DNA from: Calothrix sp. NIES-4105
Lineage (GTDB): Bacteria > Cyanobacteriota > Cyanobacteriia > Cyanobacteriales > Nostocaceae
DNA: 64,000 nt
Assembly: GCF_002368415.1 (NCBI RefSeq)
Contig: NZ_AP018290.1
Coordinates: 3,733,614 to 3,797,613, forward strand
Reading direction: 5' to 3'
Part shown: one piece after another, positions 12,941 through 30,869 of the stretch
Layout of the letters: each line of letters starts with the position of its first letter
How positions within the stretch are numbered: the first letter of the stretch is position 1
Made by a program: the position numbers and the translations under genes
The notes under the pieces: generated by a model
Database searches by the model: none
The model's input: the letters and a program-made list of their open reading frames with translations, nothing else
What the model was told of the DNA's origin: nothing

Positions 12941-13177
12941 ATGTCTCATAATCAAAATGACTTGTTATCGAGAATATCCATTGACCCAAACATTTGCTTC
13001 GGTACACCCTGCATTCGCGGTCATCGCATCTGGGTATCAATGATTTTAGATTATTTAGCAGGGGGTGAAACCATAGAAGCAATTTTAGAAGAATATCCTG
13101 GTATAGAACGAGAGGATATTTTAGCTTGCATTGCTTATGGTGCCGAACGTAGTGATTCGTTTACCTTCTCGTCATGA
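12941..13177 (+). CDS. DUF433 protein, VapB-like antitoxin
   Basis: 78 residues of the DUF433 family, small helix-turn-helix-like proteins often found as antitoxins. Family motif ICFGTPCIRGHRIWVSMILD and EDILACIAYGAE are complete. I prefer the ATG at 12941, which follows AGAGG by 7 nt, over the upstream ATG at 12902. The reading frame of its likely partner survives only as a 3' remnant (13142-13315), so this is probably an orphan antitoxin gene. Confidence 0.78.
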   Translation: MSHNQNDLLSRISIDPNICFGTPCIRGHRIWVSMILDYLAGGETIEAILEEYPGIEREDILACIAYGAERSDSFTFSS

Positions 13178-13439: not shown

Positions 13440-13517
13440 GAGTACTCATTATGCTAAACTACGAGCGCGTATCGGTGGTGAAATGCCACGGGATAATACA
13501 ATCTTCTTTGCTTGATA
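13440..13517 (+). pseudogene. cas2 remnant with internal deletion, upstream of CRISPR array 1
   Basis: The segment TATGCTAAACTACGAGCGCG is identical to intact cas2 near 26840. It then jumps straight to GTATCGGTGGTGAAATGCC, which matches the cas2 3' end near 26940. About 85 bp of cas2 is missing between short GAGCG repeats and the 5' half is absent. The remnant ends with the same Phe-Ala stop as cas2 and is followed by a homologous leader. Confidence 0.85.
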
Positions 13518-13780
13518 TTTGCTAGCTAGTTGCGCCAACCTGTGGGTGTTGAAAAAAGTATGCTAAATTCAACGGCTGAATTATTTACCCTGTCTTAGTT
13601 TCAGCTATTTTTTCTCAACTTAAGGTTGGCGCAACTCTTGAAAACTGCTCTAAATATAGCTTTGAGCTATTTTTGGCTCAGATCACTATTGACAGACAAT
13701 CGGCTGAAATTGTATTTTAAGATTAGTTGGCGCAACTGAACCTTGAAAACCGAATATGGTAATGCTTCTACTGTGAGCCA
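13518..13780 (+). promoter_or_regulatory. leader of CRISPR array 1
   Basis: 263 bp between the cas2 remnant and the first repeat, closely similar along its whole length to 26988-27250 (shared blocks: GCTAGCTAGTTGCGCCAACC, TGAAAAAAGTATGCTAAATT, GGTTGGCGCAACTCTTGAAA, GCGCAACTGAACCTTGAAAA). AT-rich, next to the non-degenerate end of the array. It should hold the array promoter and the spacer-integration signals. The element TTGGCGCAACT recurs within each leader. Confidence 0.85.
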
Positions 13781-15472
13781 ATTGCAATTTAAAATAATCC
13801 CTAACAGGGATTGAAACAAACAATGATTGTACTTAAAGGCAAAGTCGTTATATTGCAATTTAAAATAATCCCTAACAGGGATTGAAACTGAAGCTTATCT
13901 CTCTAATGGTAAGCAACTTATATTGCAATTTAAAATAATCCCTAACAGGGATTGAAACAACAAAATCATAGCGAATGGTGAGGAGTGGACAAAAGATTGC
14001 AATTTAAAATAATCCCTAACAGGGATTGAAACTTGATTGGGTAAGCGCTGGGCGTGACTATTAAACATTGCAATTTAAAATAATCCCTAACAGGGATTGA
14101 AACTTTGTAAAATATGCTTTTGATTTTTCATTAACAATCAATTGCAATTTAAAATAATCCCTAACAGGGATTGAAACTTTAATATCGTACACCTGACTCG
14201 CACAAGTTGCATTGCAATTTAAAATAATCCCTAACAGGGATTGAAACAGTAGTAAATGAATTACAAACTACTTTTTTCAAATTGCAATTTAAAATAATCC
14301 CTAACAGGGATTGAAACCAAAATCTTTGCAGCTACTTCGTTTTTAAGTCTATTGCAATTTAAAATAATCCCTAACAGGGATTGAAACTTGCTTTCTGACC
14401 CTGGTAGCTGCCCACCTTGAAATTGCAATTTAAAATAATCCCTAACAGGGATTGAAACAGCCAGAGCTAAATCGTTACTAGCTTTATCAATTGCAAATTG
14501 CAATTTAAAATAATCCCTAACAGGGATTGAAACAAGGATTGCAACCTTAACAAATAATCCCTTTGCGTGATTGCAATTTAAAATAATCCCTAACAGGGAT
14601 TGAAACAATTCCTAAGTTTAATTCAATATCACAGCAATAGATTGCAATTTAAAATAATCCCTAACAGGGATTGAAACTTTTGATAATGACTCTATTAATA
14701 TACGTTCTTTTGATTGCAATTTAAAATAATCCCTAACAGGGATTGAAACAAGATTATTGGCTGCTGCCGAAAAAGCGGAAGCATTGCAATTTAAAATAAT
14801 CCCTAACAGGGATTGAAACAAGCTTTGCGACTTCATAACGCGCGCTTCTGTCACATTGCAATTTAAAATAATCCCTAACAGGGATTGAAACCAGAAAATT
14901 CAAAATCACGGCGTTTTAATTTTTGACATTGCAATTTAAAATAATCCCTAACAGGGATTGAAACTTCTAAATGCTACTGCAATGGCAAAAGCTTGTGAAT
15001 TGCAATTTAAAATAATCCCTAACAGGGATTGAAACTATGCTATTAACCATGAGAATGGTGGAGTACTGGATTGCAATTTAAAATAATCCCTAACAGGGAT
15101 TGAAACTTGTATCGTATTTGCAGGCGCCAAAGCTCAGGGTATTGCAATTTAAAATAATCCCTAACAGGGATTGAAACATAAGTGTTTCCAGCAACTAACT
15201 GAGATTTGTTAATTGCAATTTAAAATAATCCCTAACAGGGATTGAAACTTAACTGATTTCTTCCAAGCCACATACTCTTTAGTGTTGATTGCAATTTAAA
15301 ATAATCCCTAACAGGGATTGAAACGTGCCTTTGTAATTATCTTATCTGGTTGATTTTTATTGCAATTTAAAATAATCCCTAACAGGGATTGAAACAGTAA
15401 CCTTCGTTGGGCACAAAAAATATATGATTTATTGAATCGTAATTTCAAATAATCCCTAGTAGGGATTGAAAA
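13781..15472 (+). CRISPR. CRISPR array 1: 23 intact 37-bp repeats plus one degenerate terminal repeat
   Basis: Repeat of 37 bp starting ATTGCAATTTAAAATAATCC, with the palindrome ATCCCT-AAC-AGGGAT and ending TTGAAAC. Repeat starts run from 13781 to 15359, with spacers of about 33-38 bp (22 between intact repeats). The last unit (about 15431-15472) is degenerate and carries the C (AATTTCAAAT) typical of array 2, indicating shared ancestry. The leader is on the left, so transcription is rightward. One spacer (14534-14569) resembles the repeat itself. The repeat differs from that of array 2 at positions 11 and 24, so the same Cas6 probably handles both. Confidence 0.98.
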
Positions 15473-15589
15473 TAAAGTAGTTGGAACGGCTACTGGTTTT
15501 GAAGATGTTGCTCAACAATAACTCGCCATGCTTCGGTTGGTTCGCTAATTGTTTGTAGTACTTGCTGACGCATCGGCGCCTCAAGCCCA

Positions 15590-15747
15590 CACGTTTAGCT
15601 AACCACCTTACTTATGGATATGACTATATAGACGATAATAGAGTGTTTAAAGCAATTAAATTAACTTTCCAACAATACTCACTTTATGTGCAGCAAATAA
15701 ACGCTTACCTCGTTTGCTGGAAGCATACTAAAAACTGCCACCATTAG
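15590..15747 (+). pseudogene. HepT-like (HEPN, DUF86) gene remnant after CRISPR array 1
   Basis: A 3' fragment reads RLANHLTYGYDYIDDNRVFK, AIKLTFQQYSLYVQQINAYL. It aligns in pattern with the end of the intact HEPN gene at 31379-31822 (RNRLVHQYEVIDNRIVFSAI, DQYQLYVQEITSFL). The N-terminal part and the RxxxxH active-site segment are missing or changed. It occupies the same position relative to array 1 as the intact pair does to array 2. Confidence 0.6.
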
Positions 15748-16031
15748 TGGCAGAAATTTGTAGCGGTTATAATTATTACAAGTACAAAATCTTAATTACG
15801 ATGATTCGGTTTGAATATTAGTCTCTGTATTTTCTAAATGGTATTTAAATAAACCATCTTGTGGAAATCTAATTCCAGCCCATTATATATTTAGGGCACC
15901 TTGCCCGTTCAGTACACAGAATATCACACTAATAGTTTATTTATAAATTAGTACTTACTTTAACTATATTAGCACCGTATTAAGACCCCTGTCACTTCTC
16001 CTTAAATCGCGCGTGTGAAATAATCTTTCGT
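15748..16031. repeat. intergenic repeats, homologous to DNA left of array 1
   Basis: AAATAAACCATCTTGTGGAA (about 15847-15866) repeats a sequence at 12697-12716. The following TTATATATTTAGGGCA...ACTTACTTTAACTATATTAGCACCGTAT stretch is a diverged copy of 13360-13437. No gene is visible. These copies flank the array 1 module on both sides. Confidence 0.6.
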
Positions 16032-16898
16032 TTAAAACCTTTCAAGATCATATAAATCACAAACGCTGAGGAGCTTTTGTTTGAAGCGATTGCGTAGACT
16101 TTCTGGTGCTACAATCACACAATTCTCTTCATAGCGCAAAACTTCCCTAATCAACCACAACTCATTTGTCACGTTCCGCACAATTTGACGGACTTCACCC
16201 ACGTCTTGGTCTTCAATGTCATCTTCTTTAGGGCGATAGCTTTTTTTCATCCAGCCTCGAAAGTGTAAGTACACTTTTATGTAATCCAAAGAGCCTCTCC
16301 ATTCTCCATTTATAGGCACAGCCGATCTAATGCGATCATAGGTCAAGCAACGGTTGTGCCAAAGTTCCGGCAATTCCGGAATATGGTTTTCTACATCTTG
16401 AGTTTCTTCACACCATACAAGCAGATAAAAGCGGCTATCAAAGGAACGAGGTTCAGCATGGCGAACTGTGTATTCAAGTTCTTGACCTTGGGAGTTGTGA
16501 TAAAGGATATAAAAAGGCTGTTGTTTTTTCATCCAGTCCTCAATCTGGATTCGCCAACCTTGGGTAGAGTAGCTAATTTGTTTCATTAATGATTGGCGGA
16601 GAGGTGCTTCGAGGTTTCCCCTCTCTAGCAAAAGTGCAAGTACAGTTTGCGCTTCGCCAATACGACCTGCATCGTTGAGGGCTTTGATAGCTTGTTGTAA
16701 GGCATTAACCTGGTTGGATTCAAGTGTGAAAGGCTTTCCAACCTCCAAAGTTTTCTCAGCGATGGCTACTATTAACCCGGATATACTGGGTTCTTTGCCC
16801 CATTTTATGTCGAGGATGCGGGCAATTTCTTCGAGCTTTTCTTTAGTCCCAGGAGGAATTGACAGTGTAATAGTGTCTTTTTTTCTTGGCATTCCCAA
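16032..16898 (-). CDS. WYL-domain transcriptional regulator with N-terminal DNA-binding region
   Basis: 288 residues. The N-terminus (RKKDTITLSIPPGTKEKLEE, about 5-25) looks like a ribbon-helix-helix region. A helical middle follows, then a WYL-type domain (FYILYHNSQGQELEYTVRHA about 125-145; RFYLLVWCEET; C-terminal PESLRNRFKQKLLSVCDLY). WYL regulators sit next to several cyanobacterial CRISPR-Cas loci and one is known as a repressor of cas expression. It is transcribed away from the cas operon, with 205 bp between the two starts, a typical position for a divergent repressor. Ligand unknown. Confidence 0.85.
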   Translation of the reverse strand: MGMPRKKDTITLSIPPGTKEKLEEIARILDIKWGKEPSISGLIVAIAEKTLEVGKPFTLESNQVNALQQAIKALNDAGRIGEAQTVLALLLERGNLEAPLRQSLMKQISYSTQGWRIQIEDWMKKQQPFYILYHNSQGQELEYTVRHAEPRSFDSRFYLLVWCEETQDVENHIPELPELWHNRCLTYDRIRSAVPINGEWRGSLDYIKVYLHFRGWMKKSYRPKEDDIEDQDVGEVRQIVRNVTNELWLIREVLRYEENCVIVAPESLRNRFKQKLLSVCDLYDLERF

Positions 16899-17048
16899 AA
16901 TGTACTTGCAAATTATAAATATCTATGGCATTATTCTAATTGTAAATGCATTTAGAGCTTTTGCTTAAAATGTAGTGACTTCTCCATTAGACTGGCGTGA
17001 AAGGTTAAAGCGCTTATCAATTTAGAAACGCTGTAATCTTCATTAGGA

Positions 17049-17072
17049 GAGCAGGTACTTCAAAACCTGCTC
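17049..17072. promoter_or_regulatory. inverted repeat in the wyl-cas divergent region
   Basis: GAGCAGGT and ACCTGCTC form a perfect 8-bp inverted repeat with an 8-nt spacer, 31 bp upstream of the preferred start of the large-subunit gene. It could be an operator for the WYL regulator or a hairpin in the 5' leader of the cas mRNA. No binding evidence exists in the sequence itself. Confidence 0.5.
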
Positions 17073-17103
17073 GCGCAAATCAAATTTGCTGAAATTAAAA
17101 ATT

Positions 17104-19584
17104 ATGAACACGGCTGTTAAGCTGAAGATACTAACAGCTACGCTTGCGGCGAAAGTGCCTCTACCAAATTTCCAGGCTTTAATTTCGTCATTGGCAAGTA
17201 AAGCTGAGACGTTTGCTCTTGCTTCACAATTTGACTCACCTAAACTCAAACGGGAGTTAAGTTTAGCAAAGCCAGATCACAGTACGGAAGAATTGCTACA
17301 AATTGAGCTTAATGGTGATAAAGTAATTTACCAAGGTCAAGAAATAGGTAAAACTCAGATTCTCTATAAATCTCCTTTACCTGGTGAGTTACAAGCAAGG
17401 TTAGCAACTGAGAGCGCAATTGACCGATTTTTGGAATATCTACAAAAGCTACATCAAATAGTAGTTCTTGATGAAAGCGATCGCCATGTGAGAGTTTTCA
17501 TTCCCAACAAGCAAGTGCAAATACCTGATTTTGCAAAACTTTGGGAAAAGTTTCTTGAAGAGGTTGCCTTTTGTGCGTATGGTGACAGTAAACATCAGTT
17601 ACCTGGGTTGGTTCAAACTTTTATTCAGATGCTAAATTCCGTCACTCTCTCAGGACGCGGGTTTAGCACTTTGGATATACCAGTTTTGACTAAAGATCAA
17701 TCACGAGTACAAGCTGGTTGGTATTTTGCTGTTGTACGTGATGTCAGAGAACGTCAAAATAAGCGTCAAATACAGATAGAGGGATTAGAGAAAGAACTTG
17801 CTGAATCTGATTTGGATGATAAAGCACGCAAATTAAAAACAAAACAGCTGCAAGAGAAGCAGGTAATGCAAATCAAAGAAGCTGAGAAATATACTGATTA
17901 TTTCCGAAAGTCTTTTGGTAAAAGTCTGGAAGAACAAAATGCAGCACGGCAAGAGCTAGGACAAATAGAAACTCAACTAGCTCAACCAAAGCTCGCCAAA
18001 TCAGAACAGAAGAAACTGCAAAAACAACAAGATAAGTTAATGGGGAAAGTCATTTTTACCCCAGAGTCAATCCAAGAAAAGTTACGATTACTTAATGAAT
18101 CTAATGGTTCTCCTTTAGATTTTGTTAAATTAGATGAGAAAAAAAATCCGGAAAAATTTCGTGAAATTCGCAAAATTTCTACAAATTTCACCGAAACTGC
18201 AACAAACCAAATTAACTCAACTCGTGGTGATATTTTCACTCAATGCGTCTTTGAGATGTATCGGTTGTTAGAAAATAAGCCAAATGACCCATTGCCGAAA
18301 CCTTTGCTAACAGAAGACCCTATTTTGGGAGAAATGCGGGCGCCTGGAGATGATAGTAAAGAATTTTGTTATTCCTGTGGAGTTAAGCTTGACCCTAAAA
18401 CCGCGCGTTGGCAAGTTCTTAGATTCATGTTTGAGCGTCCTTCTCAGCGTCGTCAGTCATCATCAAGTGAAGGTAGACCTTATATATGTTCTTCCTGTTC
18501 GGCTTTAGCTTTTGCTTCCCCACTTAAAGTCACAGATGAAAGTGTTGTCTTGATGCTTGAACCCGCAGATAGTAGTATAGATTTTGAGGAGAAAAAACTA
18601 AAAATAAAAGATTACCTCAGAATGTTGACTAATAAAGAGATGCATCTTAGTGCAGGTCGCTATTTGATTTTTAATTCTAATGAGGATCGGACAAGCAGCG
18701 GAGATTTAGCCTCTCACAAATTAGGGCAATTGCAATATGCTATGGTGAAAACAGCTAAAAACTTTTCTGTTGAAGTATTAGCAGATTTGAACTTTTCACT
18801 AATTACACAAGGTAGCGAAAAAATATCCTTAAGTAGTAAATATCTCCTTTTTATTAAAGGATTGATGGATAGCTATGGTCAGCAAATTGTTAGAGCTGGC
18901 AAAGAAGTCAATATGCATTTAGGAGATGCAGTCCGTTATATCCAGCAAGATTTACCCTATTTGGCTGATTATACTCTGACTAAGGTTGCAAACCTTTCCA
19001 ATCAGTATCAATTAGAACAAATCCGCGAAATGTATTGGCAGGCAGTACAGAATGATTTGAGAACGAAAGGAGTCGATATGAGTTCAGATAAACAACCAGC
19101 AATAAAAGCAAGGTTATATATAGATATTGCTGCATTAACAGGCATAACTTACGCTTTTGCTCAATCTTTAGAGATTACAGCTAGGCAAGCAAATAAAGGT
19201 GAAGATTATGTGGAGCGAGAGGTAAGCAAATTAATTGAAAAAGTAGATGATGCAGTTGCTTTCTGTTATTATGCGACTTTGGGAGACGTGAATAAAAGAA
19301 GCGTTCAGGCTCGTCTATACAGCAATCCAGAAAATTATTTTATTTACCAGCAAGCTAAGAACCTTTTAGATAGATTAGAGCTTTCGGATAGAGAGTTGGA
19401 AGATGAAAAGAAGAAATATCTAACTTTATATGCTGACGATATATTAAATATTTATCAGTATTTTAAAGACAATGGATACTCGCAAGAGAAAGAATGGAAA
19501 GATTTGACATATCAACTTAAACTTTCTCTTTATACTCGTTTTCCTGAATTGGTTCGTAAACAAAAATCAACAAGTGAGAAATAA
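17104..19584 (+). CDS. type I CRISPR effector large subunit (Cas8/Cas10d-like)
   Basis: 826 residues from the ATG at 17104 (a TTG at 17086 would add six). First gene of the cas operon, in the position of the large subunit. A long coiled coil spans roughly residues 215-320 (KRQIQIEGLEKELAESDLDD and the following K/Q/E-rich repeats). A four-cysteine zinc ribbon is visible: EFCYSCGVKL (about 422-425) and YICSSCSAL (about 462-465). There is no HD motif and no GGDD palm motif, so it is neither a canonical Cas10 nor a standard Cas10d. The helical C-terminal region from residue 659 can be translated separately as a small subunit (see 19078-19584). It ends 2 bp before cas7. Family assignment is by position and zinc ribbon; sequence identity with a named Cas8 family was not recognised. 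Confidence 0.8.
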   Translation: MNTAVKLKILTATLAAKVPLPNFQALISSLASKAETFALASQFDSPKLKRELSLAKPDHSTEELLQIELNGDKVIYQGQEIGKTQILYKSPLPGELQARLATESAIDRFLEYLQKLHQIVVLDESDRHVRVFIPNKQVQIPDFAKLWEKFLEEVAFCAYGDSKHQLPGLVQTFIQMLNSVTLSGRGFSTLDIPVLTKDQSRVQAGWYFAVVRDVRERQNKRQIQIEGLEKELAESDLDDKARKLKTKQLQEKQVMQIKEAEKYTDYFRKSFGKSLEEQNAARQELGQIETQLAQPKLAKSEQKKLQKQQDKLMGKVIFTPESIQEKLRLLNESNGSPLDFVKLDEKKNPEKFREIRKISTNFTETATNQINSTRGDIFTQCVFEMYRLLENKPNDPLPKPLLTEDPILGEMRAPGDDSKEFCYSCGVKLDPKTARWQVLRFMFERPSQRRQSSSSEGRPYICSSCSALAFASPLKVTDESVVLMLEPADSSIDFEEKKLKIKDYLRMLTNKEMHLSAGRYLIFNSNEDRTSSGDLASHKLGQLQYAMVKTAKNFSVEVLADLNFSLITQGSEKISLSSKYLLFIKGLMDSYGQQIVRAGKEVNMHLGDAVRYIQQDLPYLADYTLTKVANLSNQYQLEQIREMYWQAVQNDLRTKGVDMSSDKQPAIKARLYIDIAALTGITYAFAQSLEITARQANKGEDYVEREVSKLIEKVDDAVAFCYYATLGDVNKRSVQARLYSNPENYFIYQQAKNLLDRLELSDRELEDEKKKYLTLYADDILNIYQYFKDNGYSQEKEWKDLTYQLKLSLYTRFPELVRKQKSTSEK
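19078..19584 (+). CDS. predicted Cas11 small subunit from an internal start in the large-subunit gene
   Basis: Inside the large-subunit gene an AGGAG sits 5 nt before an in-frame ATG at 19078 (surrounding AGGAGTCGATATGAGTTC). This is the best ribosome-binding site in the operon. Translation from it gives a 168-residue, almost entirely helical protein (starting MSSDKQPAIKARLYIDIAAL) that shares the stop with the large subunit. Internal translation of a small Cas11 subunit from the 3' end of large-subunit genes has been shown for types I-D, I-B and I-C. Here it rests on the visible signal and the helical content. Confidence 0.7.
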   Translation: MSSDKQPAIKARLYIDIAALTGITYAFAQSLEITARQANKGEDYVEREVSKLIEKVDDAVAFCYYATLGDVNKRSVQARLYSNPENYFIYQQAKNLLDRLELSDRELEDEKKKYLTLYADDILNIYQYFKDNGYSQEKEWKDLTYQLKLSLYTRFPELVRKQKSTSEK

Positions 19585-19586
19585 TC

Positions 19587-20480
19587 ATGGCAACTGGACT
19601 TTCTAAAACTGATGCAAATAATCCTCGTCTACATTTTGATATTTATGCAATTCTCGAAGGTTCGCAAGAACTATACTTTGGCCATGAAGTACAAGTTAAT
19701 GTCAATTTAGTTGAAACGGTAAAGCTCAAAATCAAAGATGAACTATCGAGCGAACCTCGTTCAATGGAAAAATGCTATCTTTCGCCAACTAAAAGGAGAG
19801 GAGTGGAAAGACGCTGTTTAATTTGGGCGCCAGTAGCAACAGGTGAATTATTAGGGGATAAACAAGATTGTGGTATTCCCAAAACTTGCGCTAAACAAGA
19901 ATGTCCGATTTGCTCTGTTTACGGTGGTTTAGAACCAGGACAGAAAACACTAATTGGTCGTGTGACGCATGGTGGAGGTGTTGCAGTGCAAGAAATGTTT
20001 GCTGTAGAAAAGCAACGAGCAATGCATCCTTCTCGTCTGGCAAGTCCTAAAGATAAAAAGGATGAAACACCAATACCCTTTAAGCGGGAATATAACCAAC
20101 CAGGTATTCTTTACCCAGTGTCAAATCATGCTTTGAGTATAACTGATAAAGAATTTGCTGCTGTTGCGTATGCTTTCCTTGATGCTTTACCTCGGATTGG
20201 TGCAGGAAACCCCAAAGGTATCGCCATTGCTGAATCGAAAAACCAACCATTACTAGTAATGGATAGATATCTCGTACCAAAACGCAAGCGTCCAGTCATA
20301 TCACCAGCAATTACAAATCCAGAAGAAGCGATCGCAACATTTGAACGATTGGCTCAAAAACCAGAAAACACGTCAAGCTATATTCAAGAAAACCACTTTG
20401 AACGCTGGATTGGTGATGCTGCTTTGGAAAAATTGCAGGAATATTCCAGTAACTTCGTAGACGCAATTTTACAATCGTAA
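19587..20480 (+). CDS. cas7: Cas7 backbone protein (Csc2/Csm3-like)
   Basis: 297 residues of the RAMP-like Cas7 type. The early 'YAILEGSQELYFG', the cysteine motif KTCAKQECPICSVYGG (about residues 107-122) followed by TLIGRVTHGGG, and the C-terminal glycine-containing 'RIGAGNPKG' are typical of crRNA-backbone subunits. The CPxCxxYG arrangement is the one seen in type III and type I-D (Csc2) Cas7 proteins. Several copies would coat the crRNA in Cascade. It starts 2 bp after the large-subunit stop. Confidence 0.85.
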   Translation: MATGLSKTDANNPRLHFDIYAILEGSQELYFGHEVQVNVNLVETVKLKIKDELSSEPRSMEKCYLSPTKRRGVERRCLIWAPVATGELLGDKQDCGIPKTCAKQECPICSVYGGLEPGQKTLIGRVTHGGGVAVQEMFAVEKQRAMHPSRLASPKDKKDETPIPFKREYNQPGILYPVSNHALSITDKEFAAVAYAFLDALPRIGAGNPKGIAIAESKNQPLLVMDRYLVPKRKRPVISPAITNPEEAIATFERLAQKPENTSSYIQENHFERWIGDAALEKLQEYSSNFVDAILQS

Positions 20481-20514
20481 CTTGCAACTGTAATAAATGC
20501 AGCAAAAGTAAATT

Positions 20515-21342
20515 ATGTACTGCCTTCAAATTAATCTTCAACCCACGGCAGCAATGACGTTTCGCATTCTGCCTGGTTCCATACTCAACATTGCTACGTA
20601 TCCTTTTGTTCCTCCTACTACTTTCTCAGGATTCTTACGAAGATTGGGCATGATGTATGCTGGGCTGGATATTCCAAACACTCGCGTTAATAATGACAAC
20701 CCACCATTTTATGCTTTACCTCAACGCTATTGTGCTTTAGGTGCGTATTCAACAAAAGGTAAATTAAGTACAGTTCACCGTACATACCGTAAAGGAATGC
20801 GAGAATTCAATCATGATGTATTTTCTCGCATCTATCAAGATGGAGACAAAGCAAATTTTCAATTACACACTTGGGAATATTTTATTGCCGAAGAATTAGT
20901 GAGTTATGTAGTAACTGATTCTGCGAAAGGGTTAGAACATTTTCAAGAATTGGTAGGTTATGGTTGTAAACTAGGGAAAGAAGGCTTCGCTATCGTATCC
21001 CAAGTTTCAGAAATTATCGAGTTGCATCAAGAGACTCTAACCAAGTATCCATCAACAATTGTACCAATGGAAACTCTACTACAGAGTAATCAGTTTATTA
21101 GCGGTTGCGATATTTATAACCTTTACCGCTATCAATGGGCACAAAATAATACTACCGAGTCAGAGCAAGAGGGATTTTTAGATAATCAAGAAACAAAAGT
21201 GGAAGGATTCATCCCTTTTATTTCTGCTTATTTTACCGACAATTCAGGTAATCCTCCAACTCTTGACTATCTTACAGACGGGAATGATATTAATATTCCT
21301 ATTTCTTTAATTAACTTACTGAAAGGTGAGGCTTATGTCTAA
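20515..21342 (+). CDS. cas5: Cas5 subunit
   Basis: 275 residues. The N-terminal hydrophobic strand followed by YPFVPPTTFSGFLRRLGMMY is the usual Cas5 pattern (P-P-T-x-x-G-F-L), and the gene sits between cas7 and cas3. Cas5 binds the 5' handle of the crRNA. Longer than minimal Cas5d/e proteins but compatible with Csc1 or I-B Cas5. Overlaps cas3 by 8 nt. No strong ribosome-binding site is seen at its own start. Confidence 0.8.
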   Translation: MYCLQINLQPTAAMTFRILPGSILNIATYPFVPPTTFSGFLRRLGMMYAGLDIPNTRVNNDNPPFYALPQRYCALGAYSTKGKLSTVHRTYRKGMREFNHDVFSRIYQDGDKANFQLHTWEYFIAEELVSYVVTDSAKGLEHFQELVGYGCKLGKEGFAIVSQVSEIIELHQETLTKYPSTIVPMETLLQSNQFISGCDIYNLYRYQWAQNNTTESEQEGFLDNQETKVEGFIPFISAYFTDNSGNPPTLDYLTDGNDINIPISLINLLKGEAYV

Positions 21343-24034
21343 AGTAAAACGCAAACACTCTTTTAACTTTGGTCGAGTATTCTTTCCAGGTGATAAAAAT
21401 AAAATCCCTGATAAAATTATTTTTCAGCCTCTTGGTAATCATGTCGGTAACGTGATTAGAATACTTAAAAAATGGAATAGAGATAATTTTCCATCAGAAA
21501 CCTCTTTTGAAAGAGTTTTAGAAGCAGCCAAGATTCATGATGTGGGAAAACCGCCAAGGTTTGAAATTCAAAGTCAAAGTTCCAAAGATGGGACTTTTGA
21601 TAAATATATCTATTCTTTTAGGGGACATAGATATTTAGCCAAAAGTGACAAAGATGCTTGGGCTGAAGCATTAGCGATTGGACATCACGACTTTTCAGTT
21701 GAAGATATATGTACCCAGACATATCAGCTAAAAAAAGAATATAAATATGCTGATATTTTAACTAAACAGCCTCTTGCATATGCATTTGAGCTATATATTT
21801 TAGAAATGTGCGATCAAATAGAAGCAGAATTAGCCTGTCGTGTTTTTGAAGACGGCAACCAGGCTGATTCCCGAACCTTTATGGATTTTACAATATCGCC
21901 GGATGAATCCAGTAAAGAAGTTTATTTCATAGACCCCTGGCCATTTGGAGAGCAAAAGTCTATCGAATTAAGTTTTGAATCCTGGGAAATGCGACCAGTA
22001 GATGTTGATACAGATGGAGAATTACAAAAATGTATCAAAAATAATCAAGAACAAGCTCTAGGAAAAACATTAGACCGTATAGTAAAAAACTGGTGGCAAT
22101 CAGAACAAGGTCAACCAAAAAAGTCAGATACTAAAACCGTAAGTCTTAAACCTTACCCTTCTGTTATCGAATCTAAAATTTGGACGGCAGAAGAATTTTA
22201 CAAGCAATTGGGAGGTTTTACACCTAACCCAATGCAAAAAGAGATGTTTGAGTCTATTTATAATTCAAACCCAAATATTGATAAACATCCGGCGAACTTA
22301 TTGAAATCTCCCACTGGTTCAGGTAAACTTGAGTCAGTTTTGTTTCCAACATTAGCATCAAATTGGCGCCTAATTTTACCTTTACCTGCTCGCAGTTTAT
22401 TAGAAGACCAAAAAGAACGCATACAAAAATATCTCAAGAAATTTTCTACAGTATATAAAGATAGAGAAGTTTCTCTGGTTATAGATACAGGTTCGCAAAT
22501 GTATCGGTACGTCTATAAAAATGGGGTAGAAGCTAAACAACGAACCTCAAACCCTAGGCGCCATTTATATAAAGGAGATGTAATTCTCACGACCATAGAT
22601 AAATTTTTATATCGCTACTTCGCTTTTGGTGGTAAACAAAAATCATTTACTTTTCCATTGAGAATTAATCGAGAAAACACCATTATTTGCTTTGATGAAG
22701 CTCATAGCTATGACGAAATTTCATTTACAAACTTTCATAGTTTAGTTAGGTCACTTTATGAAGCAGGACGGTCAATTGTATTGATGACGGCAACAATGCC
22801 AGAAGAGTATCTAAAGCGTTTAGATTATCTTGAAGCAATAGACTATATTCATAATTCTGAAAAATTAAACCAACTCAAACAATTTCAAGCGCAAACATTA
22901 AAGCAAAAGTATCCCAATCAAAAAGCTTTTAAATGGATTAGTGATGTTGAGCGAGATGATGAAAATCCAAACATATTTCAAAATCAATTTGCTCAATTTA
23001 TTATCCGTGAGTGGAAAAATAAACCAAACCGGAGAATTATTATAGTTGTGGAGCGGGTTACAGATGCAGCAGCAATTTATGAACAGTTAAATAATTCTTT
23101 AGATTGCACTACAGATGAATCAGGGCGCCTATTATTTCTCTATCATGGTAGAATTGCTGACCAACTTAGACCGGATATATATAAACAAATTCAAGAACGT
23201 GATTCAAAAGATCAACCGTATATTCTTATTACAACTAGGGCAATTGAAGTTGGGTGTGATTTAAATGCAGAAGTGCTTATTTCTGAAATTTGTCCTCCAG
23301 AAAATCTAATACAACGTGCGGGACGCTGTAACCGTAAGGGTAATATCCCGGATGCCAAAGTTGTTGTTATTGGAAAATCTATTGCGAAATTTGCCAACAG
23401 TCTAGATGAGTCAGCTTGGCAAAAGTATCAAACACTTTTACAGTCATTGCAAGAGTTTGATACCCAAAAAATTACCAAGTGTATTTCTGTGTCCGAACAA
23501 GTTGATGATTACCGAGTAGTTGAACTTTTTTCAATGCTACATGATTACGTTTATGGCGCCGACTTAACTTGTAAACATGCTCATGAGAAAGGCTTAATAA
23601 TTACTCGTAGTTGGACACCATCTGCAACAATTATTCACAAAGATGGTAGTGAAAAACCTCATACAATTACAGTGCCAATTGACCGTCTCATCACAAATAA
23701 AGACCGTGGTAATGACTTTGGTAATATTTGTGTATTGGAACACTATTATAACGTAGAGACTACAAATTGGGATAAGAGAGATTTAAGTTGGGGCTGTGCT
23801 TACTCAAAAGATATCGTAATTGAAATTCACAAAAATCATGAAGGTGCTGCTTGTTTCGATGGTAAGCCAGAGTATCAATATAACCCAAATTTAGGCTTTG
23901 TCAATTTGCCTGGTGTATTTATTAAGCTCAAAGGAAAGAACAATAATTTTGAGGAGAAGTTATTATATAAAGATAAAAATAATAAATCGGTAATTATTAC
24001 CTATACAAAAGCATTAAAAGATGATTCTGATTAA
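21335..24034 (+). CDS. cas3: Cas3 HD nuclease-helicase
   Basis: 899 residues from the ATG at 21335, which follows AAAGGTGAGG and overlaps the cas5 stop. N-terminal HD domain: KIHDVGK (about residue 67), AIGHHDFS (about 115) and a later EMCDQIEAEL. C-terminal superfamily 2 helicase: SPTGSGK (Walker A, about 322), FDEAHSYDE (DEAH, about 452), LMTATMP, TRAIEVGCDLNAEVL and QRAGRCNRKG (motif VI, about 660). Cas3 is recruited by Cascade to unwind and degrade target DNA. The fused HD argues against a typical type I-D operon, where the HD is on Cas10d. Oddity: the residue after the Walker A lysine is Leu (GKL) instead of Thr/Ser. Confidence 0.93.
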   Translation: MSKVKRKHSFNFGRVFFPGDKNKIPDKIIFQPLGNHVGNVIRILKKWNRDNFPSETSFERVLEAAKIHDVGKPPRFEIQSQSSKDGTFDKYIYSFRGHRYLAKSDKDAWAEALAIGHHDFSVEDICTQTYQLKKEYKYADILTKQPLAYAFELYILEMCDQIEAELACRVFEDGNQADSRTFMDFTISPDESSKEVYFIDPWPFGEQKSIELSFESWEMRPVDVDTDGELQKCIKNNQEQALGKTLDRIVKNWWQSEQGQPKKSDTKTVSLKPYPSVIESKIWTAEEFYKQLGGFTPNPMQKEMFESIYNSNPNIDKHPANLLKSPTGSGKLESVLFPTLASNWRLILPLPARSLLEDQKERIQKYLKKFSTVYKDREVSLVIDTGSQMYRYVYKNGVEAKQRTSNPRRHLYKGDVILTTIDKFLYRYFAFGGKQKSFTFPLRINRENTIICFDEAHSYDEISFTNFHSLVRSLYEAGRSIVLMTATMPEEYLKRLDYLEAIDYIHNSEKLNQLKQFQAQTLKQKYPNQKAFKWISDVERDDENPNIFQNQFAQFIIREWKNKPNRRIIIVVERVTDAAAIYEQLNNSLDCTTDESGRLLFLYHGRIADQLRPDIYKQIQERDSKDQPYILITTRAIEVGCDLNAEVLISEICPPENLIQRAGRCNRKGNIPDAKVVVIGKSIAKFANSLDESAWQKYQTLLQSLQEFDTQKITKCISVSEQVDDYRVVELFSMLHDYVYGADLTCKHAHEKGLIITRSWTPSATIIHKDGSEKPHTITVPIDRLITNKDRGNDFGNICVLEHYYNVETTNWDKRDLSWGCAYSKDIVIEIHKNHEGAACFDGKPEYQYNPNLGFVNLPGVFIKLKGKNNNFEEKLLYKDKNNKSVIITYTKALKDDSD

Positions 24035-24090
24035 AAACTATAGTTGCCAATAATCAGTACGATAAACATTACTCAATATTCTTAAAATCT

Positions 24091-24933
24091 ATGCCTCATA
24101 GCTTAGTTCTTAACCTCATCCCCCAGTCAACCATTTATCCACAATTCTTAACGGGTAGACATTACCATGCGCTATTCTTGAATTTAATTAGTTCGGTAGA
24201 TCGCAGCTTGGGTGATAGTCTCCACGAATCAAATGCAGATAAGGCTTTTACCCTTTCTCCTTTACAGGTAAAATTATTTGATGGAGAAAGACGAAGGGAT
24301 AAGGGAAAAAGTTATGTGTTGCAGTATCAATACGAGCAACCTATTCCCCCCGGTACTCCCTGTTGGTGGAGAATATCATTACTTGATGACACCCTTTTTA
24401 GTAAACTAACTCAACTCTGGCTAAATATTAACCCCGAACAACCTTGGCATCTTGGTTCTGCGGATTTGTTTATTACTAACATTCAAGGTACACCTCAGTC
24501 TATCCAACCTTGGGCTAATGCTTGTAGTTATTCTCAGTTATACGAGCGCGCAAGTAATATTGACAAAACAATAGATTTTGTCTTTGCTACACCAACTGCT
24601 TTTCGGCAGGGAAGTTTTGATACTGCATTACCTAGTAGGGATTCAGTATTTAAAAGTTTGTTACAACGTTGGAATAAATATAGTGAGATAGAATTTAATT
24701 CTGAGTTTATCGAGTCTATTTTTCCAAGCTTTTTTAATATCAAAACAGAAATTGCTCGCGATTCTCGTAGTAAATTTATTGGCTGTATCGGTGAGATTAG
24801 CTATCGCATTATGGGTGAAATAGAAGCTGAGGCAATTAAACAAATTAATACTCTTGCTGATTTTGCTTTGTACGCAGGGGTAGGACGCAAGACTCCGATG
24901 GGTATGGGAATGGTAAGGAGGATAAAGAGATAA
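24091..24933 (+). CDS. cas6: Cas6 pre-crRNA endoribonuclease
   Basis: 280 residues. The C-terminal glycine-rich loop YAGVGRKTPMGMGMVRR is the Cas6 signature, and the N-terminus (SLVLNLIPQSTIYPQFLTGR, then HALFLNLI) fits the first ferredoxin-like fold with a histidine (RHYHALF, about 26-32) as a candidate catalytic residue. Cas6 cleaves the repeats within their hairpin to leave a repeat-derived 5' handle. It lies 57 bp after cas3. It should process both arrays, whose repeats differ at two positions, one in the hairpin loop. Confidence 0.9.
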   Translation: MPHSLVLNLIPQSTIYPQFLTGRHYHALFLNLISSVDRSLGDSLHESNADKAFTLSPLQVKLFDGERRRDKGKSYVLQYQYEQPIPPGTPCWWRISLLDDTLFSKLTQLWLNINPEQPWHLGSADLFITNIQGTPQSIQPWANACSYSQLYERASNIDKTIDFVFATPTAFRQGSFDTALPSRDSVFKSLLQRWNKYSEIEFNSEFIESIFPSFFNIKTEIARDSRSKFIGCIGEISYRIMGEIEAEAIKQINTLADFALYAGVGRKTPMGMGMVRRIKR

Positions 24934-24981
24934 CGCACTTCGGGATATACAAAATGACTTTTAAATAAAAATAACAAAACC

Positions 24982-25566
24982 ATGACTGAATATATTGCAA
25001 TTGCGGCATTGAATCAATATGCCTATTGTTCTCATCGTTGTTGGCGTATGTTCTGTGTTGGAGAGTTTACCGATAATCAATACACAATTGAAGGAACAAG
25101 CTTACATGATAGAGTACATACATTTGGCGAAGATAATAGAGAGGAAACTTGGAAGGTTCGAGCAATTTGGTTAAAATCAGAGCAATATAATTTAATTGGT
25201 AAATCGGATTTAATTGAGTTAGAGAATAATCGCTGGATACCAGTTGAATATAAGCGAGGGAAAAAAGGAGAATGGGATAATGATGAGTTACAGGTTTGCG
25301 CTCAAGCTTTGTGTCTAGAAGAAATGACGGGAACAGTTGTGAAGACTGGGTACGTTTATTACGCTCAAACTCATCAACGTCAATTAGTAGAAATTTCTGA
25401 TGCCTTACGACAAGATACTATTAATACAATAGCTGAAGTCACAAAGTTAATTGAAACTGGAATAATGCCACCAGCAGTCTACGGTAAAAAATGTAAAGGT
25501 TGTAGTTTACACGACCAATGCTTACCGAAGTTAGCGCAGAAGGTTAACAAGTACCACGAGGATTAA
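24982..25566 (+). CDS. cas4: Cas4 RecB-like nuclease
   Basis: 194 residues. First cluster cysteine region YCSHRCWRMFC (about 13-23), RecB motifs with acidic DLIELEN and PVEYKRGKKG (about 73-93), and the C-terminal cysteines KKCKGCSLHDQCLP (about 170-183) for the [4Fe-4S] cluster. Cas4 trims prespacers and helps set PAM and orientation with Cas1-Cas2. It stands next to cas1, as in types I-A to I-D. Confidence 0.92.
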   Translation: MTEYIAIAALNQYAYCSHRCWRMFCVGEFTDNQYTIEGTSLHDRVHTFGEDNREETWKVRAIWLKSEQYNLIGKSDLIELENNRWIPVEYKRGKKGEWDNDELQVCAQALCLEEMTGTVVKTGYVYYAQTHQRQLVEISDALRQDTINTIAEVTKLIETGIMPPAVYGKKCKGCSLHDQCLPKLAQKVNKYHED

Positions 25567-25657
25567 TTTAAGGCATTGAAATACACTTGATTAACTAGCA
25601 ACCTAATTTATACAAGATTTTTCTCATCCTCAAACATTACAAAGGAGAAATAAAAAC

Positions 25658-26662
25658 ATGGGTACTGTTTATGTGACTCAAGAAGATACTTTTATTGCCA
25701 AGGTTGATGAACGATTAAACGTAAAATTTGAAAAGAAAACAATTTTGGATATACCTTTGTTGAAAATCGAAGGTGTAGTAGTGATGGGACGTTCAAGTAT
25801 TTCCCCTGCCGCAATTATAGAATTAATTAACAATAAAATACCCCTCACATTTCTCACTAATAATGGTAAATATATAGCGCGATTAGAACCAGAAATGAGT
25901 AAGAATATTTTCCTGCGTTCAGCCCAGTGGAAAGCCGCTGGTGAGTCAGTTCAAGCGATTCATGCAGCTAAAGGTTTTGTCAGAGGTAAGCTGAAAAATT
26001 ATCGAAACTCACTCTTGAAAACGAAGCGTAACTATCCAGATATTGATACAAGTAGAGGTATTGCTCAAATAGAAACTTCCTTACTCTCTTTGGAAAAAGC
26101 GACCTCTATTGATTCAATTCGTGGTTGCGAAGGTGCTGGAAGTGCTGCATACTTTAGCTGCTTTGATGAGTTTATCCGCGTCGATAATTTTAGCTTTAAT
26201 AATCGTAATCGTCGCCCACCAACAGACCCTGTAAATTCTCTATTGAGTTTGGGATATTCATTGCTACGTCACGATATTCAAGGCGCCTTAAATATAGTTG
26301 GTTTCGACCCGTATTTGGGGTATTTACACACAGAACGTTACGGTAGACCATCTTTAGCGCTGGACTTAATGGAGGAATTTCGTCCTTTGGTCGTCGATTC
26401 ACTGGTGCTTGGTGTGATTAATCTGAAAATGTTCAAACCATCTGACTTTATCACAGAACCAGTTAGTAACGCCGTTTCTTTAACCAAGGAGAAGTTACAT
26501 GAATTTCTAAAGTTATATCAGGAGAAAAAACAGGCAAAATTTACTCACCCTGTTCTGGGAATTAAAAAAACCTATCAAGAAGCTTTTGAAACCCAGGCAC
26601 GCTTGTTAGGTAAATACCTTATGGGCGAAACCGATAAATATCCACCTCTAGTTTTGAAATAA
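25658..26662 (+). CDS. cas1: Cas1 spacer integrase
   Basis: 334 residues. Catalytic residues are visible in their usual contexts: Glu in RGCEGAGSAAYF (about residue 154), His in GYLHTERYGRPSLALDLME (about 220) and the Asp/Glu in that same helix. A good ribosome-binding site (AAAGGAGA) precedes the ATG. Cas1 with Cas2 inserts new spacers at the leader end. No active-site loss is evident, so the locus should be competent for adaptation. Confidence 0.96.
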   Translation: MGTVYVTQEDTFIAKVDERLNVKFEKKTILDIPLLKIEGVVVMGRSSISPAAIIELINNKIPLTFLTNNGKYIARLEPEMSKNIFLRSAQWKAAGESVQAIHAAKGFVRGKLKNYRNSLLKTKRNYPDIDTSRGIAQIETSLLSLEKATSIDSIRGCEGAGSAAYFSCFDEFIRVDNFSFNNRNRRPPTDPVNSLLSLGYSLLRHDIQGALNIVGFDPYLGYLHTERYGRPSLALDLMEEFRPLVVDSLVLGVINLKMFKPSDFITEPVSNAVSLTKEKLHEFLKLYQEKKQAKFTHPVLGIKKTYQEAFETQARLLGKYLMGETDKYPPLVLK

Positions 26663-26711
26663 CATCTAATCGCTTTCATTAAGTTTTGTTACATCTACCC
26701 CCCTCCAACTC

Positions 26712-26987
26712 ATGATTTTTGTTGTAGTTTCCTATGACGTTCCTGAAGACAGGCGCCGTACTAAAATCCATAAAATTCTAAAGTCTTATGGACAGTGGAT
26801 GCAGTATTCTGTTTTTGAGTGCGATTTGACCGACACTCAGTATGCTAAACTACGAGCGCGTCTCTCCAAAGTGATCAAACCAAAGGAAGATAGCATTCGT
26901 TTTTATACCCTCTGTGCTTGCTGCCAACCAAAAGTTGAGCGTATTGGTGGTGAAATGCCACGGGATAATACAATCTTTTTTGCTTGA
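26712..26987 (+). CDS. cas2: Cas2
   Basis: 91 residues with the Cas2 N-terminal strand ending in the conserved Asp (VVVSYDVPEDRRR, Asp8) and the C-terminal CACCQPKVERIGGEMPRDNT. Forms the Cas1-Cas2 integration complex. Its 3' end runs straight into the leader of array 2. A deleted copy of the same cas2-leader block precedes array 1. Confidence 0.95.
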   Translation: MIFVVVSYDVPEDRRRTKIHKILKSYGQWMQYSVFECDLTDTQYAKLRARLSKVIKPKEDSIRFYTLCACCQPKVERIGGEMPRDNTIFFA

Positions 26988-27250
26988 TACTTGCTAGCTA
27001 GTTGCGCCAACCCGTGGGTGTTGAAAAAAGTATGCTAAATTCAGCGGCTGAATTATTTACCTTGTCTAGGTTTCAGCGATTTTTCCCCAACTTGAGGTTG
27101 GCGCAACTCTTGAAAACTCCTCTATATATAGGTTTGAGCTATTTTCACTCAGATCACTATTGACAGCCAATCGGCTGAAATTGTATTTTTAGATCAGTTA
27201 GCGCAACTGAACCTTGAAAACCAAATACGGTAATGCTTCTACTGCGAGCC
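26988..27250 (+). promoter_or_regulatory. leader of CRISPR array 2
   Basis: 263 bp between the cas2 stop and the first repeat, same length as and closely similar to the array 1 leader. Contains repeated TTGGCGCAACT/AGTTGCGCCAA motifs, some inverted relative to others. Expected to hold the array promoter and integration signals; the intact repeats next to it mark it as the active end. Confidence 0.88.
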
Positions 27251-30200
27251 ATTGCAATTTCAAATAATCCCTACCAGGGATTGAAACCAGAGTTGTCTCA
27301 AATTTTAGGAAATTTCAAATATTGCAATTTCAAATAATCCCTACCAGGGATTGAAACCAATTTTTCCATTCGTTGACACACGGCTATTATCAGATTGCAA
27401 TTTCAAATAATCCCTACCAGGGATTGAAACCGGGTATCCCAGGTTTACCCAAAGCTTCTATAGCTATTGCAATTTCAAATAATCCCTACCAGGGATTGAA
27501 ACAAACCAACACTAGCTAAGTCAGCTTTTGAAATTATATTGCAATTTCAAATAATCCCTACCAGGGATTGAAACTTACATCAACAACGCCAGGAACAACG
27601 CCAGGAACATTGCAATTTCAAATAATCCCTACCAGGGATTGAAACATTTATAATATTGCACCTCGCACGCGCGGGGTTTTATTGCAATTTCAAATAATCC
27701 CTACCAGGGATTGAAACAATTGGATAGCCCCTAAATCGGATAAGTCTATCGTTATTGCAATTTCAAATAATCCCTACCAGGGATTGAAACGCTTAAGCAG
27801 AGTAATAGGGATTTAATTCAAAAGATTGCAATTTCAAATAATCCCTACCAGGGATTGAAACTCACCAGAAATAGAATGTAGCTAGTCATGGATTTAATTG
27901 CAATTTCAAATAATCCCTACCAGGGATTGAAACAGATAATGTTTCTTCTTCTGAATCTGATGTGTTAGAATTGCAATTTCAAATAATCCCTACCAGGGAT
28001 TGAAACAACATCATTGGATAGAAGCACGCGTCTGGATAAGATATTGCAATTTCAAATAATCCCTACCAGGGATTGAAACCTAAATTTGTTGTGCGCGGCG
28101 CGTACAATGCTTCATTGCAATTTCAAATAATCCCTACCAGGGATTGAAACATGAGGTGGTATGATGTTGAGCGACCAGCATGGATATTGCAATTTCAAAT
28201 AATCCCTACCAGGGATTGAAACATATATGAGATAGTTGACGCTGTAATTGAGTGGATTGCAATTTCAAATAATCCCTACCAGGGATTGAAACCCTCCACC
28301 TTTGCTTTAAGTTCGGCAATACGCTTATCATTGCAATTTCAAATAATCCCTACCAGGGATTGAAACATTAGTGCTGATGTAGATGCTAATCTTGAAAAAG
28401 ATTGCAATTTCAAATAATCCCTACCAGGGATTGAAACGCGGTTTGATACAGATGCTTTTGCCAAGTCATCAATATTGCAATTTCAAATAATCCCTACCAG
28501 GGATTGAAACATCAACGTGCGGTAACTCGTCAGCTTTGTTTAAAATTGCAATTTCAAATAATCCCTACCAGGGATTGAAACTGGGAAAAGCTAACAATAG
28601 CGACTCGGGTGGTTAATTGCAATTTCAAATAATCCCTACCAGGGATTGAAACAACATTACTATATATATAAAAGACTACTTGATATATTGCAATTTCAAA
28701 TAATCCCTACCAGGGATTGAAACGCTTCGTACTGCGATTATTCAGCAAGGTTATGTAAATATTGCAATTTCAAATAATCCCTACCAGGGATTGAAACAGT
28801 AGAAAGTGACAAAGTACGCGCGGAGGCTCTTAATTGCAATTTCAAATAATCCCTACCAGGGATTGAAACTTGACTCGTCAATTACAGGCATAGGCGCACT
28901 TCGATTGCAATTTCAAATAATCCCTACCAGGGATTGAAACCGACTTGATAAAATTGATAGAATAGAAAATCGAATTGCAATTTCAAATAATCCCTACCAG
29001 GGATTGAAACTCTTCACCATTTGGGCCACGTTCAAGCCCTGGAGGATTGCAATTTCAAATAATCCCTACCAGGGATTGAAACTCCCTACTTTTGCATTTA
29101 GAGGTACTAATAATACGATTGCAATTTCAAATAATCCCTACCAGGGATTGAAACGAGCATCACTGAAAACATCAACGAGATTAAAAAAATTGCAATTTCA
29201 AATAATCCCTACCAGGGATTGAAACATCCATAATTTACCCATTGAAAGATAGGGGTGATTAAAGATTGCAATTTCAAATAATCCCTACCAGGGATTGAAA
29301 CCAGGGGTGATATAGAAAATATCTGCACGAGTGCATTGCAATTTCAAATAATCCCTACCAGGGATTGAAACTGGACAATACAACGAATTAAATTTTGGGG
29401 GATTATTGCAATTTCAAATAATCCCTACCAGGGATTGAAACGGAGATTGATTGTTCGTATTACTAAACCCTTCTAATTGCAATTTCAAATAATCCCTACC
29501 AGGGATTGAAACAACTTTGTAGCGGCGCCCGTCCGATACATAGCGAATAATTGCAATTTCAAATAATCCCTACCAGGGATTGAAACAAGATGCTTCGAGA
29601 GAAACTGAACGACATTTTGATTGCAATTTCAAATAATCCCTACCAGGGATTGAAACAGAACATCCTTACTCATACAACAGGCGCCACAGATTGCAATTTC
29701 AAATAATCCCTACCAGGGATTGAAACCAACTGTGATGCTTAATTGGGACATGCCTGTACTGATTGCAATTTCAAATAATCCCTACCAGGGATTGAAACGT
29801 TTATGATTCACGCAAAGTTGGTGGTGGTGAAATTGCAATTTCAAATAATCCCTACCAGGGATTGAAACAGTATTTCCATAGTGCAAAGGCTGCCAGCATA
29901 CAAAATTGCAATTTCAAATAATCCCTACCAGGGATTGAAACAAAAAAGGAGAGTTGTCGGCTTTTTGGATATCTCATTGCAATTTCAAATAATCCCTACC
30001 AGGGATTGAAACTTTTGAGCGCATTGTTTCTATTGCTCAGGAATAATTGCAATTTCAAATAATCCCTACCAGGGATTGAAACCCAGATAACCAGCACTTT
30101 AGATTCGTTTGTAATGGATTGCAATTTCAAATAATCCCTACCAGGGATTGAAACCCAGGTTACAAGAAATCAAAAAGTTATCAAATTAATTGCAATTTCA

Positions 30201-30869
30201 AATAATCCCTACCAGGGATTGAAACAGAGATGGTGGAGTAAAAGAAATATACTATGGTAAATTGCAATTTCAAATAATCCCTACCAGGGATTGAAACAGC
30301 AAGTAACCCCGCGCATAGGGCACGGTTGCGATTGCAATTTCAAATAATCCCTACCAGGGATTGAAACAAGATTTAGAGCGGATATCACAGGAGAGCAATC
30401 AGGTATTGCAATTTCAAATAATCCCTACCAGGGATTGAAACTACGAACGCTCCGAGAGCGCGTATTTTTCCGGTGGATTGCAATTTCAAATAATCCCTAC
30501 CAGGGATTGAAACACGCAGGTAAAACACAATGCGTAGTAATAAATGATATTGCAATTTCAAATAATCCCTACCAGGGATTGAAACCTAAGAATTGTTGAG
30601 TATCGCTATGCAAATATTTATTGCAATTTCAAATAATCCCTACCAGGGATTGAAACCTAGCTACTATTGGAGTAGCAAGTATTAATAATGATAAATTGCA
30701 ATTTCAAATAATCCCTACCAGGGATTGAAACATCTTCAAAGGCTATTTCAGCATAACGAACTGTGTAGATTGCAATTTCAAATAATCCCTATCAGGGATT
30801 GAAAGGGAAATTGGCTGGAGTCACTATATAGCCATTGCAATTTTAATAATCCCTTAAAGGGATTTAAAG
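27251..30869 (+). CRISPR. CRISPR array 2: about 49 intact 37-bp repeats plus two degenerate ones
   Basis: Repeat of 37 bp beginning ATTGCAATTTCAAATAATCC, with the palindrome ATCCCT-ACC-AGGGAT and ending TTGAAAC. Intact repeat starts run from 27251 to 30695, with spacers of about 33-38 bp. The last two units (about 30769 and 30834) carry substitutions (CCCTATCAGGG; CCCTTAAAGGG), marking the leader-distal end. The repeat differs from array 1 at positions 11 and 24. With array 1, the element carries roughly 70 spacers, all apparently of different sequence. It follows the cas operon in the same orientation. Confidence 0.98.

Follow-up and report, generated by a model that had tools for sequence, protein, structure and literature searches.

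In Calothrix sp. NIES-4105 (G000; genome 12.04 Mb), the nifK gene is split in two by a 30,016-bp element, and judging from family matches this element holds a complete-looking CRISPR-Cas (clustered regularly interspaced short palindromic repeats and CRISPR-associated) system, with type I-B effectors and I-D-like cas6, cas4, cas1 and cas2 genes. All coordinates below are positions in the analysed stretch of 64,000 nt, hereafter the window. As a new finding, cas cargo was observed at the same place in the nifK elements of all six genomes sampled in the genus, with effectors that differ among them, which an earlier note on this DNA had missed. The preferred reading, to which we assign a probability of about 0.7, is that the CRISPR-Cas system represents exchangeable defence cargo in a fixed slot of an excisable nifK heterocyst element that is kept in the dividing line. 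The earlier note was right at its core, and its interpretation is partly supported.

The nifK element and its joints

The gene lies on the minus strand, with its 3′ part (C-terminus) at 10666..10925 and its 5′ part (N-terminus) at 40938..42220. Both parts end at a recombination core GTTC (GAAC on the plus strand), located at 10922..10925 on the attR side and at 40938..40941 on the attL side, and the same core was found at both joints in 6/6 nifK elements of the genus. The direct repeat of the element ends is only this 4-bp GTTC, and joining the two nifK halves GTTC to GTTC removes the 30,016 bp and restores an in-frame NifK of 512 aa. Around the joint of the would-be circle the sequence forms a near-palindrome, CATTA GTTC TCTAATG. 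In G001, a congener that lacks the element, NifK is intact (512 aa, 96% identical) and the joint site reads GTAGC, in which the synonymous serine codon AGC replaces TCN and the GTTC core is absent; such a site is possibly resistant to the element.

A gene for an XisF-type large serine recombinase (516 aa; 11131..12681, plus strand; NCBIfam NF041201, E 5e-159; Pfam Resolvase, Recombinase and Zn_ribbon_recom) lies ~200 bp from the C-side joint, and an XisF-type gene was found in the same locus as the nifK C-part in 32/33 loci. When NifK was searched in 150 relatives, 108 gave a match, and in 20 of the 108 the match of the N-part stopped at residue 429–448, that is, in G000 and 19 others (G002–G006, G009, G013, G017, G018, G025, G027, G028, G029, G042, G066, G075, G076, G080 and G087). 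An assembly artefact is an unlikely cause of the split, since six genomes agree. By position, recombinase, repeat and restored frame, the element is identified as a nifK interruption element of a cyanobacterium of the Calothrix/Dulcicalothrix group, and to judge from homology and the joints it would be excised in heterocysts.

The nifK elements described by Hilton et al. (2016; PMC4874684) are alike in their split nifK and their terminal xisF-like recombinase oriented against nifK, and an elongation factor G (EF-G) paralog is reported there in the elements of Calothrix PCC 7103 and PCC 7102, as in G000. The main text of that paper mentions CRISPR 0 times, yet the PCC 7103 and PCC 7102 elements were found here to carry I-D cas genes and arrays. 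The XisF of the fdxN element of Anabaena/Nostoc PCC 7120 belongs to the same NCBIfam equivalog as the G000 recombinase, but the fdxN element interrupts another gene, and no xisH/xisI was found among the scanned open reading frames of the G000 element in a search that was not exhaustive.

A hybrid CRISPR-Cas system between the joints

The earlier note had placed on the nifK element a CRISPR-Cas system with about 70 spacers and a WYL regulator, spanning 13440–30869. This was confirmed by NCBIfam and PADLOC matches, with all cas genes and both arrays lying between the joints, 72 distinct spacers counted in the two arrays, and a span that fits and opens with a copied cas2 end and leader. For the WYL-type regulator (288 aa; 16032..16898, minus strand), the gene was found as described and the family assignment is weak (PADLOC WYL 1.3e-7; Pfam WCX just below the cut-off).

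On the plus strand follow cas8b (832 aa; 17086..19584; PADLOC PDLC01527, E 0), cas7b (19587..20480; PDLC01388, 1.6e-127), cas5b (20515..21342; PDLC01389, 5.9e-125) and cas3 (902 aa; 21326..24034; TIGR01587, 7.2e-41), the last of which retains in the alignment what we take to be the HD-nuclease motif. Downstream of these are cas6 (24091..24933; PADLOC Cas6d, 5.8e-151), cas4 (24982..25566; Cas4d, 9.9e-87), cas1 (25658..26662; NCBIfam TIGR04093 of type I-D, 7e-122, above cut-off) and cas2 (26712..26987; Cas2d, 3.8e-42). Thus, the effector set is that of type I-B, namely Cas8b, Cas7b, Cas5b and Cas3 with HD (HD by motif only), while adaptation and processing genes of I-B type were not found: Cas4, Cas2 and Cas6 match best with I-D models, and for Cas1 the top match is an I-D model in NCBIfam and a Cas1c model in PADLOC, not I-B. 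Cas10d was not found as large subunit in this element, where PADLOC identifies the large subunit as Cas8b. The locus is therefore a hybrid, because I-B effectors are combined with Cas6, Cas4 and Cas2 of I-D models and a non-I-B Cas1.

Both arrays are on the plus strand. Array 1 (13781..15472) has 24 repeats and 23 spacers, with a degenerate last repeat at 15436 that contains six mismatches, and is preceded by the copied fragment of the cas2 end and leader (13444..13780, plus strand; within 13444–13793, 88–93% like 26835–27264). Array 2 (27251..30805) has 50 repeats and 49 spacers and is followed, near 30833–30869, by one more repeat that is very degenerate. The 23 and 49 distinct spacers measure 33–40 nt, and Rfam CRISPR-DR5 matches 73 repeats of the two arrays.

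One slot with differing, probably exchanged modules in related genomes

A survey of nifK elements for cas genes, which the earlier note had proposed, gave cas1 within the element in 6/6 element-bearing genomes of the genus: G000, Calothrix PCC 7716 (G002), Dulcicalothrix desertica PCC 7102 (G003), Calothrix PCC 7103 (G004), the metagenome-assembled genome Calothrix FI2-JRJ7 (G005) and Calothrix HK-06 NIES-2101 (G006). Random placement expects 0.08, as calculated from hand-entered cas1 counts and element lengths for six genomes that are related and not independent. A backbone of xisF, WYL, orf35552, EF-G and KAP is common to the six elements, and the five congeners are 90–91%, 38–57%, 82–86%, 96–97% and 82–83% identical to G000 in these genes, respectively.

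The effectors differ from this pattern. Cas8b was found in 8/150 genomes, and inside the genus in G000 alone. In contrast to I-B in G000, the elements of the five congeners are assigned I-D effectors of at least two Cas10d lineages by model matches and similarity: PADLOC identified Cas3d, Cas10d, Cas7d and Cas5d in G004 and I-D effectors with a different Cas10d model in G005, and G002, G003 and G006 were assigned to I-D by similarity to G004, with Cas3d and Cas10d stretches 89–98% like those of G004 in G003 and G006 and 45–47% in G002. Arrays flank the cas genes on both sides in 5/6 elements (the exception being G002), and in these five two-array elements the array 1 leader is 86–92% like the element's own array 2 leader.

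Beyond the operon and array, a distal cas6 that is 74–75% like that of G000 was found in G002, G004, G005 and G006, and in G003 it is present as two pieces that overlap (57% and 76%). In G003, G004 and G006 this distal gene comes in addition to another cas6, whereas in G002 and G005 it is the sole full copy, and in G002 and G006 it stands next to an array with G000-like repeats. To judge from their sequences, these distal copies and G000-like repeats look like remnants of turnover. In the Cas1 tree, the element cas1 genes fall in separate groups, {G003, G004, G006} and {G000 + G025:C224, G002 + G005}, with G025:C224, from another genus, as the nearest neighbour of G000, and the starred branches force three label changes. 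The Cas1 tree and the effector differences together point to module exchange within one slot rather than simple descent.

Outside the genus, 14 genomes have the same nifK split, of which nine elements were examined whole, from xisF to the nifK N-part (G017, G018, G027, G042, G066, G075, G076, G080 and G087), and five are broken or rearranged (G009, G013, G025, G028 and G029). In 8/9 whole elements no cas1, no I-B, I-D or III-D Cas match and no array (simple script) was found, with a Cas query set limited to proteins of these three types, which other Cas types could escape. The element of Cyanomargarita calcarea (G018, L121) contains type III-D genes, with a Csx10 family match (E 9.8e-132), CARF-RelE and a Cas6-like gene, and a CRISPR array was looked for there and not found.

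These comparisons bear on the question of whether the element is only a tolerant landing site, where CRISPR-Cas rests by history with neither benefit nor a link to excision. Such passive hitch-hiking would agree with the eight whole elements of other genera in which no CRISPR-Cas was found, with the highly variable gene content of the elements described by Hilton et al. (2016; PMC4874684), and with the G005 cas1 that is spread over two frames. It sits less well with the retention of cas genes in the same slot of 6/6 genus elements despite differing effectors, and with the spacers: none is common to any two of the six elements, so acquisition probably continued after the elements parted. We therefore judge hitch-hiking unlikely, while taking it seriously as an explanation.

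The earlier note had further proposed that immunity leaves the chromosome of the heterocyst. This system would indeed go off the chromosome upon excision, but immunity would probably not all be gone, as two further type I loci lie on C1 of the same genome, one at 5.41–5.42 Mb with Cas8a/Cas7/Cas5a-like effectors (Cas3 not looked for there) and the other at 9.20–9.21 Mb with Cas3b, Cas8a1/b, Cas7b and Cas5b. The strong form of the claim, that heterocysts lose immunity, is weakened by these two loci. A related idea is that a developmental partition was itself selected: heterocysts would actively rid themselves of CRISPR-Cas, for instance so that it does not attack their own rearranged DNA, and the germ line would keep it. 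The position of every CRISPR-Cas part between the joints is in line with it. Excised circles persist in heterocysts, and this, together with the two other loci and with the whole nifK elements of other genera in which no cas genes were found, makes a selected partition very improbable in our judgement.

Three spacers match other CRISPR machinery

The 72 spacers were compared with the 150 relatives at E 0.01, and two candidate stretches per genome were scored; in G000 both scored stretches were its own arrays. In total, 64 genomes were matched (the own arrays of G000 included), compared with 9 for a reversed-spacer control, and the best score of the control was 44.6 bits versus 63.5 bits for the top match outside G000 among the matches listed. 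Three of the 72 spacers, a9, a23 and b49, were clear of the control, and each matches other CRISPR machinery. That all three do so is suggestive only, since detection favours conserved targets.

Spacer a9 (14388..14421, plus strand) matches, with up to 34/34 bases, a conserved stretch starting ~120 bases past the Cas12k stop. In locus L185, for example, Cas12k (E 1.5e-200) has its stop at 1382 and the a9 match lies at 1502, and DR15 repeats and a tRNA come after the target stretch. This target was identified as the tracrRNA (trans-activating CRISPR RNA) gene of a type V-K CRISPR-associated transposon (CAST), because its position past the stop fits the tracrRNA start 35 nt past the cas12k stop given in the CvkR paper (PMC9938897). 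A decayed type V-K CAST also exists on C2 of G000 (L214, G000:C2:224000-236000); its 220-aa open frame covers part of Cas12k, and its tracrRNA-like stretch is altered within the a9 target.

The leader-distal end of array 1 is formed by spacer a23 (15396..15435, plus strand), whose target is I-D cas7d: it matches 36/40 bases in G026 and G074, 34–35/40 in the elements of G003, G004 and G006, and 31/40 in G002. Array 2 has at its leader-distal end spacer b49 (30732..30768, plus strand), which matches WYL genes beside I-D loci, among them those in the nifK elements of congeners, with 35/37 bases in G002 and 33/37 in G005. Leader-distal as they are, a23 and b49 are presumably the oldest spacers of their arrays. 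Upstream (5′) of the protospacers, GTC or GTT was found in 18/18 distinct a9 copies among the loci compared and GTT in 5/6 for a23, both counts leaving out the row of G000's own array. The interference protospacer-adjacent motif (PAM) of the I-D system of Synechocystis is GTN (PMC10212523), and a GTN PAM at the a9 and a23 targets fits the I-D-like adaptation genes of G000. Some support for the exclusion of rival elements, which the earlier note had suggested for this CRISPR, comes from the spacers that match type V-K CAST, I-D cas7d and WYL in the nifK elements of congeners.

Two further explanations involve a23 and b49. CreR-type RNAs are regulatory guides, and the two spacers, both at the trailer end by an altered repeat and both matching CRISPR-locus genes, could be guides of this kind for cas and WYL genes. 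The matches, however, are nearly full length and fall within coding sequence. No cas7d was seen in the G000 element, and b49 pairs with the element's own WYL gene at just 23/37 bases, the first mismatch already occurring at base 4; a regulatory role is hardly credible on these grounds. The second explanation makes heterocyst elements an arena of CRISPR against CRISPR, in which an I-B newcomer would have founded both arrays on anti-I-D spacers (cas7d, WYL), ousted the resident I-D system from the nifK slot and later gained memory of type V-K CAST. This scenario is tentative, and we consider it doubtful.

Several results of the spacer survey weigh against the reading of defence cargo. The other 69 spacers alone match 13 genomes besides G000, with a best score of 44.6 bits, the level of the control, and the survey covered two to three candidate stretches per genome, so that further targets, also in the own genome, are possible. 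The matching to foreign DNA proposed in the earlier note found its positive outcome in the congeners' nifK elements (a23 and b49); nothing credible was found for the 72 spacers in 50,697 phage records (best E 0.2; best 25 of 125 rows by letters matched) or in 72,556 plasmid records (best E 0.7; 21 rows). Specificity of a23 for nifK elements was rejected, as its best copies are in G074 and G026, and the one in G026 belongs to an I-D locus away from nifK. For b49, a GTN PAM (GTT) was found in just 1/5 distinct protospacers. Finally, the six elements hold 296 distinct spacers, 72 of G000 and 224 of the other five, and the pattern of matches to CRISPR machinery was not borne out by these 224, which in a search of 80 genomes (three candidate stretches per genome) gave two matches of 54.5 and 50.9 bits. 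The target of one, a G003 spacer, is a 294-aa open frame in G082, and that of the other, a G005 spacer, is an open frame of G000 that is large and synthase-like; neither target was recognised as CRISPR machinery (no family scan made). Separately, a G006 spacer matched 20/21 bases in L175, outside arrays.

Other genes of the element and its surroundings

Next to xisF lies a gene for a DUF433 protein (91 aa; 12902..13177, plus strand; Pfam PF04255, E 2.5e-26), which we take to be antitoxin-like. It is also present in the congeners' elements, and in G005 (L112:6437-6814) the gene after it is DUF5615/PIN-like, and the two likely form a toxin-antitoxin pair. Beyond array 2, a toxin-antitoxin-like pair on the plus strand (30917..31822) consists of a nucleotidyltransferase (30917-31369; Pfam Polbeta, 2.2e-14) and a HepT-like protein (31379-31822; HepT-like, 8.7e-21). 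It is followed by a CHAT-TPR protein gene (32029..35160, minus strand; Pfam CHAT, 2.8e-74), which is full-length in G002 and G003 and found only as fragments in G004, G005 and G006, and by the EF-G paralog (36640..38730, plus strand; Pfam GTP_EFTU and EFG domains) and a KAP-family NTPase (38878..40629, plus strand; Pfam KAP_NTPase, 1.4e-56). In Scytonematopsis contorta (L151, L171), a 96% identical EF-G and a nucleotidyltransferase/HepT pair adjoin xisF.

Directly after nifD (42431-43918), where nifH is expected, the region 44339-63977 contains genes for a phosphopantetheinyl transferase, a thioesterase, a methyltransferase, an aminotransferase and large synthetases, a gene set that may represent a further insertion into the nif cluster.

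Discussion

The reading of exchangeable defence cargo builds on the observed anatomy, the restored frame, the genus-wide conservation, the module difference and the spacer matches. In vegetative, dividing cells the element would reside in nifK, and in heterocysts XisF would recombine the two GTTC joints, by which nifK would be mended and a circle left. The slot flanked by xisF and by EF-G/KAP, which holds type I CRISPR-Cas in each of the six sampled genomes, would have had its modules exchanged, giving I-B effectors in G000 and I-D in the congeners. Protection of the vegetative lineage is the most likely role of the system, which would thereby pay for an otherwise dispensable element, and some of its spacer memory may be directed against other mobile or CRISPR-bearing DNA, namely type V-K CAST and I-D loci, some of them on the nifK elements of congeners. 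Heterocysts would have the system on the circle only, while the two other CRISPR-Cas loci would probably remain. It also counts against this reading that excision, activity (expression and interference) and benefit to the element are all steps that we infer from sequence.

CRISPR on mobile DNA has been described elsewhere. The array of cyanophage N-1 has DR5-like repeats of the same family as the G000 arrays (PMC4916379), and Haloferax lucentense has I-B systems on a megaplasmid and a provirus (PMC12596717); the likeness lies in CRISPR being carried by mobile DNA, possibly against competitors. Unlike these cases, G000 combines effectors, arrays and the genes for adaptation on one element of the chromosome, which is probably removed in the course of development. 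In the open-access literature, with most subscription papers outside its scope, no report of CRISPR-Cas on a heterocyst interruption element was found.

Hilton et al. (2016; PMC4874684) pose the question of whether interruption elements are useful to the host or selfish. It is an open question why genomes retain heterocyst interruption elements, and immunity cargo with exchanged modules, present in all nifK elements sampled from one genus, offers a testable answer. The finding links cell differentiation to immunity, and it can now be asked, in named strains with such elements (Calothrix PCC 7103, Calothrix PCC 7716 and Dulcicalothrix desertica PCC 7102), whether the immune memory of a multicellular bacterium may be kept mainly in its germ line.

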